Assembly (NCBI RefSeq): GCF_000616095.1
Contig: NZ_BAMS01000003.1
Span: 248,001-312,000 of the forward strand
DNA: 64,000 bases
Origin: Sneathiella glossodoripedis JCM 23214
GTDB taxonomy: Bacteria; Pseudomonadota; Alphaproteobacteria; Sneathiellales; Sneathiellaceae
Direction of reading: 5' to 3'
The stretch's first letter is position 1. The number at the start of each line of letters is the position of its first letter. The notes below the pieces were generated by a model. That model was not told where the DNA came from. It saw only the letters and a list, made by a program, of their open reading frames with translations, and did not search any database. Made by a program: the position numbers and the translations under genes. Of this stretch, positions 29,687 to 57,873 are shown piece by piece.

Positions 29687-30653
29687 TTAGCGTACTTTTG
29701 CAGCAGCCTCTTTTAAAATGCTGGTGTCGGCGCCGTCCAGATGTGCGTTTTCAGAAATATGTCGCCGCCAGGCACGCGCGCCGGGTCGCCCCTGAAATAG
29801 CCCAAGCATATGCCGGGAAATGGCTTTCAGAGGAACTCCTTTTGCCATTTCGGAATCGATATAGGGCAAGATTTTTTCGACCACTTCTTTGCGCTCTGGC
29901 GCATCGTCTGAAACGCCGTAATAGCGCTGGTCAATTTGCGCCAGAAAATATGGATTCTGATAGCTTCGCGCCCAATCATAACGCCGTCTACAGCCTGCAG
30001 ATGGCTGTCTATTTCCTCAAGAGTTTGAATGCCACCATTTATAATGATCTCGAGTTCCGGAAAATCTTTCTTTAGCTGATAAACAACATCATATTTGAGC
30101 GGTGGAATGGTTCTGTTTTCTTTTGGGCTGAGCCCTGTAAGCCAGGCTTTGCGGGCATGAATGATGAAAGTCTCACAACCTTTGTCTTTAATGGTTTGAG
30201 TGAAATGGACAAGATGCTCGTAACTATCCAGATCATCAATGCCAATTCGGTTTTTGACGGTTACGGGCAGCGTCGTTGCATCTTTCATTGCAGCAACGCA
30301 ATCGGCTACCAATTCTGGCTCGGCCATCAGGCAGGCGCCAAACCGCCCATTTTGAACCCGGTCTGAAGGGCAGCTACATTCAGGTTAATTTCCTTGTATC
30401 CATACCCCTCAGCGATTTTAGCGCATTTGGCAAGGTCTTCCGGATTGCTGCCGCCCAGTTGTAATGCAACGGGTTGTTCATCTGAATGAAAGTTTAGATG
30501 CCGGGCTTCGTCACCAAAAAGAATTGCACCGGTTGTCACCATCTCTGTGTACAGCAGGGCTCGTGATGTGATCAGGCGCAGAAAATATCTGTCATGACGA
30601 TCAGTCCAATCCATCATGGGCGCAATACTTACGGTGCGGTTTAGTTTGGTCAC
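29687..30653 (-). pseudogene. dusA: tRNA-dihydrouridine synthase A, two apparent -1 frameshifts
   Basis: FMN enzyme reducing uridines in the tRNA D-loop. Part 1 (GTG 30653, GAGG site) encodes [23 protein letters not shown] to KEINLNV. One added base near 30374 continues [17 protein letters not shown], containing the catalytic Cys, then [12 protein letters not shown] and [11 protein letters not shown] second added base near 29962 continues [16 protein letters not shown] to the end. Restored length is about 322 residues, normal for DusA. The gene's 5' end is the recombination site of the island upstream (30654-34406). Two breaks in one gene could be true decay, but similar breaks throughout the window favour sequence error. 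Confidence 0.85.
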
Positions 30654-30667
30654 ATCTACCTCTGTTT
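30610..30667. repeat. dusA attachment-site repeat, copy A (start of dusA)
   Basis: These 58 bases, covering the first 14 codons of dusA and its ribosome site, recur exactly and in the same orientation at 34349-34406. Direct repeats of the dusA 5' end are the hallmark of prophages and genomic islands whose integrases target dusA: the element's own end restores the gene start and displaces the old one. Confidence 0.8.
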
Positions 30668-31019
30668 CATTTCGTAGTTTAGATATATAATTCCACGCAG
30701 AAAACCAAGGGAAAATCTGTAGCTTAACGCCGCTACTAGGCATTCAGGCTTTCTCACTAGGTCAGAACAAAAATAATTGGAGGAACTTCGTAATTACATT
30801 CTCTAGTTTTTGGTCCTTTAATTCTATGAGGATGTGTCCAGTAGGGAATTCTACCGTATGGTGAGGTTTTAGCAAAGACACAAACTACACCGCATATTTG
30901 TCAATATTTGATGGATCAGACGATTGAAGAAAATAGTGTTTCAAGAAATTCAGAGAATTTGTATAATCCTCTAAGTTGTAAGGGATGCAAGAAAAATGTT
31001 GATTAGGTAGGGGGAAGTT
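30654..31019. other. AT-rich left end of island, no gene seen
   Basis: This 366-base stretch between the dusA start and the first island gene holds the promoter side of dusA. I find no credible coding frame, RNA gene or long repeat in it. Confidence 0.5.
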
Positions 31020-31523
31020 GTGTCGCAACAGAATGAAGTGATTGAAACAGAAAATAGTGCTGATTTTTCTTCGGAATACTCAAGAGAGCGGCTTTTTAGG
31101 CTATTTGTTGGTCCGAATGCAGAGATTTTTTTACAATTAAACAACGACCTAAACGCGAACAAAAAACCTAAATCGTACAATTGGGTTGCTTTTTTCTTTC
31201 CAATACCATGGCTATTTTATCGAAAAATGTACTTATGGGGCTTAGCTATTTTACTGGTTCCGGTAATTTTATATACAGTATTTCCGGATCTACCGGATGC
31301 CAGTATTGCTATTGGAGTTGTGTTTCTTCTGCTTGGAAATCAGTTTTACGTTGAGAGCGCCAACAAAAAAATAAAAAAAATCGAGGCATTGGGGCTCTCT
31401 CCAGAGGAGCGCGATGAGCGTATTCGCAGTACGGGTGGAGTGTCAAAGACAGGAGCAATTTTTGGCGGCATAATAATGCTATCATTGATTGCTATAGTTG
31501 TTTTAAACTATTCTGCAAGATAA
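31020..31523 (+). CDS. DUF2628-like membrane protein
   Basis: The 167-residue protein starts at a GTG with a GGGGGA site. About 60 polar residues are followed by a KSYNWVAFFFPIPWLFYRKMY segment (key residues NWVAFFFPIPW and FYRKMY), typical of DUF2628/DUF805-like proteins. Two membrane helices (LAILLVPVILYTVF; SIAIGVVFLLLGNQFYV), a charged loop and a last helix (GGIIMLSLIAIVVLNY) come next. The biochemical role of the family is unknown. Seven bases separate it from the PrsW-like gene, so they form a two-gene island operon. Confidence 0.65.
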   Translation: MSQQNEVIETENSADFSSEYSRERLFRLFVGPNAEIFLQLNNDLNANKKPKSYNWVAFFFPIPWLFYRKMYLWGLAILLVPVILYTVFPDLPDASIAIGVVFLLLGNQFYVESANKKIKKIEALGLSPEERDERIRSTGGVSKTGAIFGGIIMLSLIAIVVLNYSAR

Positions 31524-31530
31524 CTCATCA

Positions 31531-32550
31531 ATGGACGAAATCCCGCTTAGAACACTTTCATTTTTTGCTGCAATTGTTCCGCCTGTTATCGTGCTTGTAT
31601 ATTTTTTGACTGCTGCCAGAATCAAAGTTACTGGCGATAAAATATGGGAGGGCTTTGGATTTGGCGCCTGTGCAGCCTTTCCTGTTGTTGTTGTAGTGCA
31701 GATTTATGAGAAGTCTTTTGGCTATGGTGATGGTTTTTTTGAAAGCAGTCTCAATCATGCCTTTTTTGGTGCTGCAATTCCAGAAGAGACGTTCAAACTT
31801 ATAGCACTATTAACCTTAATTAGTGGCCAGCTTCACACTCTGAAACCCAGCCAGACATTTACACTGAGCATTGCCGTTGCGTGTGGCTTTGCTTGTCTAG
31901 AGAATATTTTCTACGTCGTAGACAGTGACAATTGGCATTTTGTTGCACTATTGCGGAGCATAAGTGCAGTCCCGGGGCATGCTTTTGTTGGCGCTCTTAT
32001 GGGTTTCTTCGCTGCGAAAGCTACCAAAGGTCGAAATAAGATCATTTACTGGGCGTTAGCCGCTATCGTGCCAATCCTGTTACACGGATTATATGATTTT
32101 CCAATTTTTGTTATTTCAAATTTTGATCAGGTGGTTGATGGGCCTCCGACAGAAATTGCCTGGTTCTTTGTTCTTATGTTTATTCTTGTTGTCATCATTG
32201 AGGGCTTATTTGCGCATATTAGTCTTTGCCATATTCTCAAAAATTCAACCCCTCAAAGAAGAGGCACAATTATAGAACAGCAAACAGTATTCTACTTGAG
32301 ATGGCTTCATAATGTTGCGGAACATTCATTTCTGTGGGTATTTATGGGGGTTATAAGCTTTTCTGTGGCTGTCATTTTTTTACTTGGCGTAGATATCGAG
32401 CACGTAATCTCGCGTTCATTCTATAAAGATAGTAAATACGTTCTTGTACTTGGCTTTGCTTGCTTCGCAATGCTTCACGCCTTCACTTTTGTTGGCCTTG
32501 CAATTGTTTTAAGAAGCAGAAAGAAGGGCATTACCGCTAACTTTGTATAG
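31531..32550 (+). CDS. PrsW-family intramembrane metalloprotease
   Basis: The 339-residue polytopic membrane protein has the PrsW/CAAX-protease-like motifs: PEETFK (residues 84-89, EExxK), ACLENIFYV (ExxxN type), an ISAVPGHAFVGALMGFF segment with His, and LLHGLYDFP with His and Asp. In Bacillus, PrsW performs the first cut of an anti-sigma factor; other family members have unknown substrates. About eight hydrophobic helices are seen. It follows the DUF2628-like gene closely. Its location inside the dusA-bounded island suggests accessory function. Confidence 0.8.
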   Translation: MDEIPLRTLSFFAAIVPPVIVLVYFLTAARIKVTGDKIWEGFGFGACAAFPVVVVVQIYEKSFGYGDGFFESSLNHAFFGAAIPEETFKLIALLTLISGQLHTLKPSQTFTLSIAVACGFACLENIFYVVDSDNWHFVALLRSISAVPGHAFVGALMGFFAAKATKGRNKIIYWALAAIVPILLHGLYDFPIFVISNFDQVVDGPPTEIAWFFVLMFILVVIIEGLFAHISLCHILKNSTPQRRGTIIEQQTVFYLRWLHNVAEHSFLWVFMGVISFSVAVIFLLGVDIEHVISRSFYKDSKYVLVLGFACFAMLHAFTFVGLAIVLRSRKKGITANFV

Positions 32551-33486
32551 CAGACCTCAACTGTTGTACCGCTTGATGGGCAAAACAAAGTGTTTTCGCT
32601 AATTATTATCCTTTCTAAAATTAGTAATACCGGTCTTAAGTAGTTAATAATCAGTCAGTTGTTGTTAGCATCGATAATTTAATTGGCGCTAAAAGAGTGC
32701 CGAAAAATACAATTGATTTAATCGGTTATGTCTGAAGTCCGCCCAATCCTTTATGAGGACTAATAGTTGCGGTACGGTTGAATTTGGTCACGGTTTCCTT
32801 GGTTTCTTTTTACGGCCGAAAAATAGAATTTTAGGCAAAAATCAACGAGATATATAAAGCGCTGATTTAGGAATGGCCTGAGTTTCAGTCATAAAATTCC
32901 GCTGTTTCGCTATATTAGTACCGCTTAAGGAGCTTTTAAATCAAAATTATTTATTGGATTGTTATGCCCGTTAGGTGGAGAAGGTCGGCCCCGATGAAGC
33001 CGCTGTTTGCCCGTTTATCTGCGTAGAGGTTAACAAAAGTGAATTGGCTCGTTTGCAGAACGTAATCCTTTAGCTTAAGCACCGGTGGGATGGTACTTCG
33101 CTTGGTTGGATCAACCCGTCCATATGGGTGAATTGGCCTTGATTTTTTAAAACATCGATAATCCGCTAGTCTGGATTGCCTTTTTCCGGAAAAATGGTTT
33201 AAGCTACTTAAGGCTCTCAATAGTTATGTTTGGTGTCTGAGGCAGTTTAAAATATCTGTTATTACTTTTGCGTTTGGAATGTTCGCTGAAATGAGAGAAC
33301 TCGATTGTACTAATCCCTAATAAGTCACAGTGCCAAATTAATTCTCTTTGTATTCAGGTGTCGCTGCATATCTGATTGAATTTTTTCACTTTGGTTGGAG
33401 GAAAATTAAGGTAGTGCTTGTGTTTGATGTTAAATCTATTAACGGTGGCTCTCAATTTAATTAAATAGACAACTAGAAAAGTATTT
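32551..33486. other. AT-rich non-coding stretch with dusA fragment
   Basis: These 936 bases have stops in all frames at short intervals, apart from one 89-codon minus frame (32951-33220) with no recognisable motif. The only interpretable content is the decayed dusA start at 32726-32791. It is probably the junction of two inserted elements or the remains of lost island genes. Confidence 0.5.
32726..32791 (-). repeat. Diverged third copy of the dusA 5' end (copy C)
   Basis: Read on the minus strand from GTG 32791, it gives V-T-K-F-N-R-T-A-T-I-S-P, closely matching dusA's [12 protein letters not shown]. Over the 33 bases ending at the GTG, 25 match copy A. It then loses frame by one base but still matches the DNA for the MMDW codons. 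All three copies have the same orientation. It is best read as the attachment-site remnant of an older, tandemly inserted element. Confidence 0.65.
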
Positions 33487-34110
33487 ATGTCAAAAAAAAT
33501 AACTAAATTTTACTCGAAAAATAATGTTTCCTACACCAAAAAAGGTGATACTGAAGTTATTGTTTTGCCGCTACCAAAGCACCCAATAAACGCAATATTG
33601 CTAGCAATTTATAGCATTTTAATGCTCTCTATGAATTTACTTTTTCAGTCACTGTTCAATGCTCAGCTAACGAATATTCAAAACATATACCACTTTATGA
33701 TCTCATCAGCCGTTTATATGTTTCTGGTTGTCTTAGCGGCCTTTCCTCTGTTTTTGCTTTATTTAATACTTAGGCCCAAGCATCAGGAGCGAATTCACCT
33801 CACACCAATGGAAATCAGCATTGATAGTGGGGCCTTAGCTTTAAGGCCTACAGTTGACATTAATGATTTTATTGAGCAGGTAAAAAATAGTCCTCGAAGG
33901 CAATTCACGGTTAGTGCAAATCTGGTGCTTCGAACCCTTCTAATTCGGTATGGCCGACAAAGTTACCTGCAAGTCATGGATGGTTCAAAATATAAAAACA
34001 TTGCTCGAGGTCCCTCAAACGAGGTTCGAGAGTTTCTCTTTCATCATATTGTGCATTATTATGAAAAGGTTGCTACTGATAAAAAAAATCAGCCATCCAG
34101 CAACTTGTAA
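33487..34110 (+). CDS. Hypothetical two-helix membrane protein (island cargo)
   Basis: The 207-residue protein has a basic N-terminus (MSKKITKFYSKNN). Two membrane helices follow (AILLAIYSILMLSMNLLF; VYMFLVVLAAFPLFLLYLIL) at about 37-55 and 78-98. A soluble C-terminal domain of about 105 residues shows mixed alpha/beta sequence and a Lys-rich tail. I do not recognise a family. Codons are AT-rich relative to the flanking housekeeping genes, consistent with acquisition. Confidence 0.6.
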   Translation: MSKKITKFYSKNNVSYTKKGDTEVIVLPLPKHPINAILLAIYSILMLSMNLLFQSLFNAQLTNIQNIYHFMISSAVYMFLVVLAAFPLFLLYLILRPKHQERIHLTPMEISIDSGALALRPTVDINDFIEQVKNSPRRQFTVSANLVLRTLLIRYGRQSYLQVMDGSKYKNIARGPSNEVREFLFHHIVHYYEKVATDKKNQPSSNL

Positions 34111-34522
34111 TACTTGATGTTAGGATATGTTGGGGATAAATTTACTATATATGGTTGATTTTTTTATAATATAAAACACGTATAAAGATTGAATTTTTGA
34201 CCCATATCGCAATTGTTTGAATTGCTTTAGGAACGCAGTCAATTTCTTTACACGGTTATATTCATTGCGTAAAAAGTTATTGGCATTAAATACTTACCAA
34301 GAAAAAAATTAACAACTAAATCAAGTAGCTGAGAAAAAATCCGTCCAGTCCATCATGGGCGCAATACTTACGGTGCGGTTTAGTTTGGTCACATCTACCT
34401 CTGTTTTCAGTTCTGCCTTCCATATAGGCAAATGATCATATAACGAAAGAGAAAATGTTGTCTTAATGGGATTATAATACAGGTGCAAGAGCTGAAAATT
34501 GCGCTGCAGGTCAATTCATTAC
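34111..34522. other. AT-rich right end of island and dusA upstream remnant
   Basis: This 412-base stretch contains no gene. It holds the distal dusA repeat at 34349-34406 and, to its right, what is probably the original upstream region of dusA next to azlD. Confidence 0.5.
34349..34406. repeat. dusA attachment-site repeat, copy B (displaced dusA start)
   Basis: Identical over 58 bases to 30610-30667. On the minus strand it encodes [14 protein letters not shown], continues D-W-T-D with synonymous third-base differences from copy A (GAC for GAT, ACG for ACT), and then runs into a stop after five more codons. This is what is left of the pre-insertion dusA start. Confidence 0.8.
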
Positions 34523-34828
34523 TTACCAGCCTTGGGAGCCCATAAAATTCAGCAGCGCAAAGACTGCCACACCGCCGCACATGGTCCAGATTACGTGATT
34601 ACTGAGCCATGCGATTGCAAGTGCAGCGCCAGCGGCGATCCAAGTTGTAAGCCCTTGACCAGTTAGTGATGCAGCAACAAGAGAGATGATAATCAGGCCG
34701 GGGATCTCTTCCAGTATCCAGGCATGCTTGGACGCTTTGATCGTGTCTCCGGCGACCAACCCCAGAATACGGATTGAGAAAGCCGCTGCTGCTAGGACAA
34801 ATATCAATACCCAAAAATCGGTACTCAT
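34523..34828 (-). CDS. azlD: AzlD-family branched-chain amino-acid export subunit
   Basis: The 101-residue membrane protein has three to four helices: FWVLIFVLAAAAFSIRILGLV, PGLIIISLVAASLTG, WIAAGAALAIAWLSN and GGVAVFALLNF. It matches the small AzlD/BrnE subunit. Together with AzlC it exports branched-chain amino acids or analogues. Its ATG overlaps the azlC stop by 4 bases, and the divergent Lrp-type regulator is the likely controller. Confidence 0.85.
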   Translation of the reverse strand: MSTDFWVLIFVLAAAAFSIRILGLVAGDTIKASKHAWILEEIPGLIIISLVAASLTGQGLTTWIAAGAALAIAWLSNHVIWTMCGGVAVFALLNFMGSQGW

Positions 34829-35501
34829 TGATGGTTACTCCTGCGTCTTAACACTGCGATGCAGGCAAGGCCAGCTAGTGTCCCTGCAACAATTGCATAG
34901 GCTTTTGCCAAGCCCAGTAATACAAAGATCATGGTAATAAAGAAGCTGATCAACCAAGGAAACAGTCTGGAATGCCCACTCCATAACCCTCTTGCCATGC
35001 AATAAATGCCGCTGTGAAGGCAAATCCGAGGCCAAACTCTTCTAAATTGGGGAGGTTGGATCCAACAATCGCCCCAAATGAGGTTGAGAGGGTCCACACA
35101 CTGATCATGACAATGCCGGAGCCAATAAGGAAGGGGGCGCCAATAGTGGGGTTTTTGGCACGTTCCGACATGGTCAACGCCCAATTTTCATCGCCTGTGA
35201 TATGAATTGCCAGTAATTTAAACCGAAGCGGCAATCCGTCCAGTATGTCCGACAATGAAGCAACAATACCTATGTATCGCAGGTTTAATGCGGCACTGGC
35301 GAGGGCGGCACCAATCACAGCGGGACTGGCAGCGAATTGCTCAACCGCAACAATTTGCGATGAGCCGGCGTGAACGAGGGAGCTCATTAGTGCCACTCCC
35401 CACCATGGAAAACCAACTTGCGCGGCTAACAAACCGAAGGCAAAGCCATATATGGCTGCACCTGCTGCAAGAGGTAAGATTGTTATCATTCCTTGTTTCA
35501 T
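34825..35501 (-). pseudogene. azlC: AzlC-family branched-chain amino-acid exporter, one apparent -1 frameshift
   Basis: Large membrane subunit of the AzlCD exporter. The first frame (ATG 35501) gives GMITILPLAAGAAIYGFAFGLLA, the SLVHAGSSQ stretch, ALNLRYIGIV and GDENWALT, typical AzlC signatures. Near 34998 the frame breaks; one added base continues FIAMARGLWSGHSRLFPWLI and the last helices to the stop at 34825. Restored length is about 225 residues, normal for AzlC. It is coupled with azlD downstream. Confidence 0.85.
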
Positions 35502-35597
35502 AGGCCTCACAATATCTAAAAAATGTGATGTAAAAAATGCAAATAAAGGATAAAAATTGATTTGTTTGTGTCTAACAGGAAGAAATATTGATAAAAT

Positions 35598-44027: not shown

Positions 44028-44623
44028 ATGTTAAAGCAGCTTATAAAGCGTATCCGGCGTGATCAGCGTGGCACGACAGCCGTAGAGCTTGCCTTGATTT
44101 CGCCGGTATTGGCGACGGTTCTCTTTGGTATTATTGAGCTAAGCGTCGCCATGTTCGTCAATACAGTTGTTGAAGGTGGGCTGAGAGATGCCTCGCGTGT
44201 TGGTTTAACCGGCATGGATACAGGTGGAACCAGCCGTGAACAGCGCATTGCCGATATTGTGAATGAAGCTTCCCTCGGCATGGTCAATTTGACCCCAAGT
44301 GATATTTCGTCATTAATATATCCAAGTTTTGGTGATATCGGACAGCCAGAACCTTATACCGACGTAAATGGCGATGGCAGCTATACAGCTAACGCTTTTA
44401 CTCATAATGGCGTTAGTTACCCTGACGGTGAGCCTACGATGATATAAACGGTAGTGGCGCCTGGGAAGATGATATGGGGCAGGCGGGCCTCGGTGGGCCC
44501 GGCGAAATTGTGCTTTATACAATCACCTATAACTGGAACCTTTTAAGCGGGCAGATTATTCCGATCCTTGGGGGGACAATTCCCATGTCAGCGTCGATGG
44601 TTGTTCGAAACGAGCCATTCTAG
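44028..44623 (+). pseudogene. tadE: TadE-like pseudopilin, one apparent -1 frameshift
   Basis: Minor pilin-like component of the Tad secretion/pilus apparatus. The N-terminus has the TadE signature RDQRGTTAVELALISPVLATVLFGIIELSVAMF: a G/T-AVE processing region and a single hydrophobic helix. Near 44435 the frame breaks in GAGCCTACG; one added T continues EPYDDINGSGAWEDDMG and on to a TAG at 44621-44623, giving 198 residues. The restored tail ends MSASMVVRNEPF. It lies 9 bases before the second pseudopilin gene. Confidence 0.8.
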
Positions 44624-44632
44624 GAGTGACTT

Positions 44633-45258
44633 ATGAAACGCATGATTTTGTTTGATCAACTTCGTAGATCACGGCTATTTACCCGATTTCTAAAAGATAA
44701 ATCCGCTGTGGCGATGACTGAGTTCGCGATGTTGTTGCCGCTGCTTCTGTTGCTGACAGTTGGTAGCTTTGAAGTGGGGCGGTATGCACTCTTAACGCAG
44801 AAACTTGATCGAATATCGGCAACTATGGCCGATTTGGTGGCGCGGGCCGAAGCTTGAGCGCGGCTGAGATGGATAATTTGTTCAATTCGACCGATCATCT
44901 TGCCAAACCTTTTGATTTTACCGGTTCCGGGATGGTTGTTGTGACATCCGTTATGGGACGAAATGGACAGGACCCGTTAGTCATTGGACAACGCTCCAAG
45001 GGAACTATCACGGGCGTCAGCAGTAAAATCGGAAATGATGGCGGAACAGCAACCCTGCCTGCTGTCTTTACAGATGTAAACGGTCAAACCCTGTCTGAGG
45101 GGGAGGGCGTCATCGTCAGCGAGGTTTTTTATAGTTACTCACCCTATTTCGTTGGTGCAGGTGGCCAGTTTTTCTCAACAAATTTCTTTAATGATTTGGT
45201 TGTATACCGTCAGGCTTTCTTCCGCCCCAGATTATCTGAACAAACAACTTTCGAATAA
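44633..45258 (+). pseudogene. TadE/TadF-like pseudopilin, one apparent -1 frameshift
   Basis: A second Tad minor pilin. Frame 1 gives KDKSAVAMTEFAMLLPLLLLLTVGSFEVGRYALL (a TadE/F-type prepilin helix) and stops after LVARAEA. The frame starting at 44854 continues LSAAEMDNLFNSTDHLAKPF to RPRLSEQTTFE. Stop and start overlap (TTGA), but one added base near 44853 joins them as ARAEALSAAEMDNLF, giving 208 residues. Whether it is TadE or TadF cannot be settled. It is the last gene of this small operon. Confidence 0.78.
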
Positions 45259-56891: not shown

Positions 56892-57873
56892 ATGATAGAT
56901 ATTGCAACCTTGCTCCCCGATTGGATGAAATCTACAGATATTCTGGCCATAATTGCCGGTGTAGCCTCAATGGCGTCCTTCTTGCTGATTTGGAATGCGC
57001 TTTTGGTCAAGGACTCCCTTCCTGATAGAATCAAGGGATTGGAAAACCGCCGCAAGCAATTACGTGATGAAATCGTCAAGAAAAACCCCCAACGCAGTAA
57101 TTTGATTGCAAAAGAAAGCTTTATGCATCGCGTGGTGAAAAAACTACAGTTGATGAAAGGGGAAAGGGCGAAACAGATCTCCGCTCATTTGGCACAAGCA
57201 GGCTGGCGATCAAAAGAAGCTCTGGCAACTTACCTGTTTGCACGGATTTCATTGCCAATACTTTTTGGAGTTCTGGGCGTACTGTATGCTGTTGCTAAAA
57301 ATCCCTTTGACTGGCCGCTTCCTGCAGGCATTGCGGTTGCTCTTGCTGCTGCATTTACGGGTTACATATTGCCGGGAATTATTCTTAAAAACCAGATTAG
57401 TAAACGTTATGCCCTTATTCGCAAAGCGCTGCCAGATGGGTTGGACCTTCTGGTCATTTGTACAGAAGCTGGCTTGAATTTGGATAGCGGCCTTGATCGG
57501 GTTTGCCGCGAGGTTTCAAATTCGGCTCCGGAACTTGCAGATGAATTTGCTTTGACTGCTATTGAATTGGGCTTTTTGCCAGATCGCAAGGAAGCATTGA
57601 TGAATTTGTCTTCACGCGTAGACTTTCAATCCATGAACACGCTCGTCAATACCTTGTTGCAGACAGAAAAATATGGAACGCCTCTTGCGGTTGCTGCGGG
57701 TACTTTCGGCTGAAATGCGGGACGAGCGTTTGATGAAGGCCGAAGAAAAAGCGGCCCGTCTGCCTGCAATTATGACGGTTCCAATGATCCTATTTATTCT
57801 TCCCGCACTCTTTATTGTGCTCATTGGCCCGGCCGTACTTCGCGCTCTTGATGCTTTCTCCGGTTCCGGTTAA
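56892..57873 (+). pseudogene. tadC: Tad inner-membrane platform protein TadC, interrupted (+1 or -2 shift)
   Basis: Partner of TadB. Frame 1 encodes the N-terminal helices, the RKALPDGLDLLVICTEAGLNLDSGLDRV signature and LVNTLLQTEKYGTPLA, then stops at 57713. The last 55 residues (LRVLSAEMRDERLMKAEEKAARLPA, then ILFILPALFIVLIGP) are in the frame open from 57673. Unlike the other breaks in this window, the shift needs one base removed (an insertion) or two added, giving about 326-327 residues, normal for TadC. The break lies at about 57688-57700. Confidence 0.85.

Follow-up and report, generated by a model that had tools for sequence, protein, structure and literature searches.

The 3.7 kb that separate a displaced start of dusA from the resident one in the analysed window, a 64-kb stretch of DNA (G000:C10:248001-312000, G000 being the genome of the window) in which dusA lies on the minus strand, appear to be a tandem pair of small integrase-less elements, and a third, decayed copy of the dusA start would be the seam between them. 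We assign a probability of about 0.75 to this reading, under which the composite probably moved last. The start copies are designated C (30576-30653, resident), B (32714-32791, minus strand) and A (34315-34392, displaced); the putative element from C to B, about 2.1 kb, is called alpha and that from B to A, about 1.6 kb, beta. The features are as follows.

29690..30653, minus strand: resident dusA, whose start is copy C (Pfam Dus in two frames; G005 DusA matches in frames -3, -2 and -1)
30600..30723, minus strand: copy C with its promoter, the putative right end of alpha joined to dusA (right-end profile, 88.8 bits; this sequence is in the profile)
31020..31523, plus strand: alpha cargo, DUF2628 protein of 167 aa (Pfam PF10947, E=1.6e-8)
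31531..32550, plus strand: alpha cargo, PrsW-family membrane protease of 339 aa (Pfam PF13367, E=2.1e-24)
32677..32758, minus strand: left half of B, a putative degenerate left end of alpha (model R1, 17.6 bits; core-free test, 9/2000 shuffles)
32738..32849, minus strand: right half of B, a degenerate dusA promoter and start, the putative right end of beta (right-end profile, 24.5 bits; 0/300 shuffles)
33487..34110, plus strand: beta cargo, 207-aa protein with hydrophobic stretches by eye (open reading frame; no Pfam match)
34271..34367, minus strand: putative left end of beta at junction A (model R1, 70.8 bits; this sequence is in the model)
34339..34463, minus strand: copy A, a displaced dusA promoter and start (97% identity to C over 68 nt; right-end profile, 101.8 bits; this sequence is in the profile)

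The first-pass annotation had placed a third, diverged dusA start at GTG 32791 on the minus strand, between the resident and the displaced start, and our comparisons confirm it. This GTG opens VTKFNRTATISP, after which the frame is lost; the further claim that the DNA still matches the MMDW codons of dusA agrees with the C-B alignment, which begins about 45-60 nt upstream of the GTG, where the similarity reaches into the dusA promoter, and passes the MMDW codons after a 1-nt shift. When the three copies are aligned as nucleotides, A and C form a pair with 97% identity over 68 nt, and B shares 75% identity with either of them over 44 nt. The ungapped start score of B (32714-32791) is 43; the resident copy scores 141 and the displaced one 95. 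When 130 nt of the resident 5' region are aligned locally to the island between C and A, the score is 68, which none of 300 dinucleotide shuffles reached (mean 27.8, maximum 42; Gumbel p about 2e-8).

The two halves of B were assessed separately, with B left out of the right-end profile, the first left-end profile and model R1. A right-end profile of 18 sequences, A and C included, gives B an E of 3.4e-6. A first left-end profile, from five sequences, assigned only 10.6 bits to B (E=0.13) and detected two further decayed junctions, in the Sneathiella genomes G011 (E=6e-10) and G006 (E=3e-5). With these added, the left-end model R1 (103 positions, seven sequences) matches B with E=4e-4 over 182 kb and, genome-wide in G000, ranks B third after A and C (E=0.0087, with 150 of 873 candidates scored). 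Five partial R1 matches of 17.2-19.6 bits, covering 33-59 model positions and lying off dusA starts, are present in G005, G017, G022, G023 and G011, so that the R1 score of B is by itself not unusual; B differs from these matches in its coverage of model positions 9-97 and in being in register with the dusA start. Against a core-free profile built from eight left ends, B scores 2.9 bits, and 9 of 2000 shuffles as well as 5 of 3996 background windows score at least as high; thus, the left half without the core beats most, not all, of the controls. As judged from these profiles, the right half of B is strongly and the left half moderately supported. The earlier proposal of two dusA-targeting elements with a decayed junction is in this respect upheld, with the dusA promoter and start upstream and an element left end downstream in B.

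Similar junctions exist in other members of the genus, namely G005, G006 and G011, in line with the proposed two-element array. We searched 23 other Sneathiella genomes for dusA and took twenty stretches; in G004 and G012 the matches did not exceed the level of other Dus genes, and G016 had no match. There are three dusA starts in G005 (L043), two in G011 (L044) and one displaced start, near a contig end, in G006 (L053). The internal junctions in G011 and G006 are decayed, and the tandem arrays of G005 have full middle junctions. Among the candidates scored with model R1 across 24 genomes, ten near-full-length left ends of at least 20 bits were found in four genomes (G000, G005, G006 and G011) and none in the other 20. 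Seven of the ten are training sequences; the three new ones are at a second G011 locus (131975, 65.4 bits; 138860, 30.2 bits) and on G006:C129 (20.2 bits). From core to core, the lengths are between 1.6 kb and 8.3 kb, with only rough values for G006. Reading from the displaced start towards dusA, G011 has a TRAP-to-TetR block (6.05 kb, 84% to G023), then the decayed internal junction and then a 2.3-kb block (73%); G023 has the same two blocks beside dusA in the opposite order, with no junction detected beside them. The near-full-length left ends in four genomes, the three starts in G005 and the swapped blocks indicate that such junctions recur in Sneathiella.

The second G011 locus (L100/L101, G011:C1 about 131975-138946) has copper-type genes between two dusA-type junctions, beyond which lie transposase-like ORFs (genes named by eye); the 30 kb fetched there contain no dusA.

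Many resident and displaced Sneathiella starts have in common a T-rich stretch, a TATAT box, a GAGG-like ribosome site and similar first codons, and some resident dusA starts lack the T-rich promoter. Most genomes that carry this promoter lack a detectable left end, so the promoter may belong natively to dusA and have been copied by the elements, instead of being one of their own marks. In the displaced copies of G000, G005, G006 and G011, the dusA sequence ends past the core and gives way to an AT-rich stretch, followed in most displaced copies by TTGGTAC/TTTGGTACC-like repeats, which we regard as putative recombinase arm sites.

The cargo conforms to the earlier suggestion that B splits the island into two halves: the open frames at 31020-31523 and 31531-32550 (DUF2628 and PrsW, in alpha) lie on one side and the single frame at 33487-34110 (in beta) on the other. 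The 207-aa beta protein has a 34% paralogue in the same genome (G000:C12:85416-85970, L065), amid ordinary-looking chromosomal genes; it was found in one of 24 Sneathiella genomes and in two of 385 genomes of the class, one of these being that of the window. PrsW was found in two of the 24 Sneathiella genomes, the second being G004 (32%). None of the fetched loci contains a convincing relative of the stretch 32796-33487 (best E=0.1), PADLOC gave no match for the three window cargo proteins, and nothing in the plasmid and phage collections matched the island DNA. One viral contig has the left-end motif, but as a chance match inside an ORF, and was rejected. In G004:C283 (L069:7904-9402), a DUF2628-like ORF (by eye) adjoins the PrsW relative, the same pair as in alpha; this 10.7-kb stretch has no significant dusA end.

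We propose the following order of events. The left end of each element would be AT-rich, and its right end would contain a copy of the dusA promoter with the first codons of the gene; given such a right end, insertion within the first dusA codons would displace the old start and supply a new one. Copy B would be where the right end of beta meets the left end of alpha, and as an internal copy it would neither drive dusA nor border the unit; it has decayed. Beta and alpha would have joined first, after which the composite would have been inserted, or have left and been re-inserted, as one unit, through site-specific recombination by a tyrosine recombinase presumably acting in trans. Because A and C are nearly identical and B is decayed, the entire 3.7-kb composite probably moved last as a single unit, a step that the present comparison suggests and that was absent from the first-pass annotation. 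Insertion of one element after the other predicts that A, as the oldest displaced copy, should be worn; given that it is not, we prefer, and infer, an order in which the pair was joined first.

An unlikely alternative is a single island that entered with both cargo parts and retains in B a relic att site or dusA start; accretion at this locus would then not have occurred. The contrast between the 97% identity of A and C and the decay of B would be expected under this scenario as well, and it fits the distribution of the cargo: DUF2628 and PrsW occur together in G004 without the beta protein, and arrangements with alpha or beta alone at dusA, which the first-pass annotation had raised as something relatives might show, were not found among the 24 Sneathiella genomes, neither cargo part being seen at another dusA. 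Conversely, accretion leaves behind exactly this, a promoter, a start and a left end in register, and G005 does have tandem arrays whose middle junctions are full. Moreover, a single island leaves the origin of the relic unexplained, and for lack of that account this explanation comes close to the favoured one, in which a composite moved last.

A still less probable possibility is that a whole dusA copy, arisen by duplication or acquisition, once lay inside one larger element and that B is what its decay has left. The C-B pairwise alignment does continue, with gaps, for about 20 nt beyond the DWTD codons. However, dusA coding profiles of 45 and 78 nt have no match downstream of B, the G005 DusA protein matches only 29690-30653 of the window (E<=1e-10), and the left-end model fits the downstream part of B instead, where there is a moderate resemblance to the left end common to Sneathiella dusA elements. 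Because the region downstream combines this resemblance with the absence of a dusA coding match, B is best read, on its sequence, as a decayed element-element junction and not as a decayed gene. Chance similarity, which the AT-rich composition of the region (33-42% GC) and the only moderate significance of the left half alone might favour and which the first-pass annotation had named as the outcome that would undo its claim, is highly improbable and is rejected for the right half by the shuffles and the profile E-value given above.

Under the favoured reading of a tandem pair, the recombinase would be encoded elsewhere. A Pfam scan of the three island ORFs returned DUF2628, PrsW or no family, and no integration or transfer genes. 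The genome-wide search covered tyrosine integrases (Phage_integrase) only, with E<=1e-5 for G005, G006 and G011. There is no Phage_integrase match on the dusA contig C10 of G000, whose nine matches are all on C11 and C12, and none on the dusA or array contigs G005 C2, G006 C39 and G006 C129; in G011, the distance to the nearest match is about 605 kb for dusA and about 37 kb for the second junction locus. Ten cargo ORFs of G005 and G011 yielded no recombinase in a Pfam scan.

Outside Sneathiella, 78 of 80 named dusA loci could be scanned for a second start within 10 kb upstream, and two (L179 and L168) have a clear one. In L179, from Psychrosphaera, an integrase is beside dusA; relatives of this integrase are present in 17 of the 24 Sneathiella genomes, and no right-end or left-end match was found in 20-kb stretches surrounding the relatives in G000 and G018. 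L168 (1900-10000), from an Oceanospirillaceae MAG, has a displaced dusA start about 8 kb upstream, with no integrase among seven ORFs scanned with Pfam. A literature search, which largely did not reach subscription journals, returned no report of such arrays in Sneathiella.

Several known systems invite comparison. Genomic islands specific to dusA, with DAI integrases and a 21-bp att consensus, have been described (Farrugia et al. 2015, PMC4482086). As in those islands, the insertion here is in the 5' end of dusA, the original start is displaced and a new one supplied, and the repeats are direct and imperfect, with A and C flanking the island. DAI islands differ in having a DAI tyrosine integrase beside dusA and a typical size of 30-60 kb, compared to 1.6-2.1 kb here and no integrase on contig C10 or among the island ORFs. 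The dusA-targeting IMEs of Vibrio carry an integrase, RdfN and mobilisation genes (PMC8409611), none of which was found here. CIMEs lack integration and transfer genes, keep their att sites and stack in tandem, and composites of them may move as one (PMC5704250). The window elements are similar in that the Pfam scan of the three ORFs found no such genes and that B, with its strong right and moderate left half, is an att-like junction parting two elements; unlike in CIME accretion as described there, the array contains no ICE or IME partner with an integrase. By this analogy, integrase-less (CIME-like) elements seem to have accreted in tandem here, at a known hotspot. The Dehalococcoides ssrA islands are likewise tandem units at one gene, parted by repeats of the gene end, and 15 of them are without an integration module (PMC3146451); they differ in using the ssrA 3' end and in the serine recombinase DsiB, present in 16 islands, as opposed to the dusA 5' end and no integrase here. 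The microcin H47 island of E. coli is also small, lacks recombinase genes and is flanked by imperfect direct repeats; its excision and integration with functions encoded elsewhere have been demonstrated (PMC3191183).

More tentatively, the Sneathiella dusA could be a cassette-array site at which small integrase-less elements pile up and change order through a recombinase encoded elsewhere, with each insertion giving this housekeeping gene a start anew. The common left end would then be AT-rich, possibly often with TTTGGTACC-like repeats, and the right end would mimic the dusA promoter and start. Such a site would function in the manner of an integron array in which a gene start takes the role of attC/attI. 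If small integrase-less elements do stack at dusA and reorder between species, this hotspot, whose islands in the accessible parts of the cited papers are mostly large and bring their own integrase, would be a modular cargo dock too; the helper recombinase of the dock could be sought, and decayed internal junctions such as B would let the history of an array be read.

In the comparison with proteins of relatives, 5 of 25 rows match in more than one reading frame, one of these being an ORF antisense to dusA. The segments concerned are 29690-30653 (dusA, read in three frames in the present assembly), 44034-44620, 44633-45255 and 56895-57867, and their frame breaks may be assembly indels rather than real decay. 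Similar frame breaks are seen by eye in azlC at 34825-35510.
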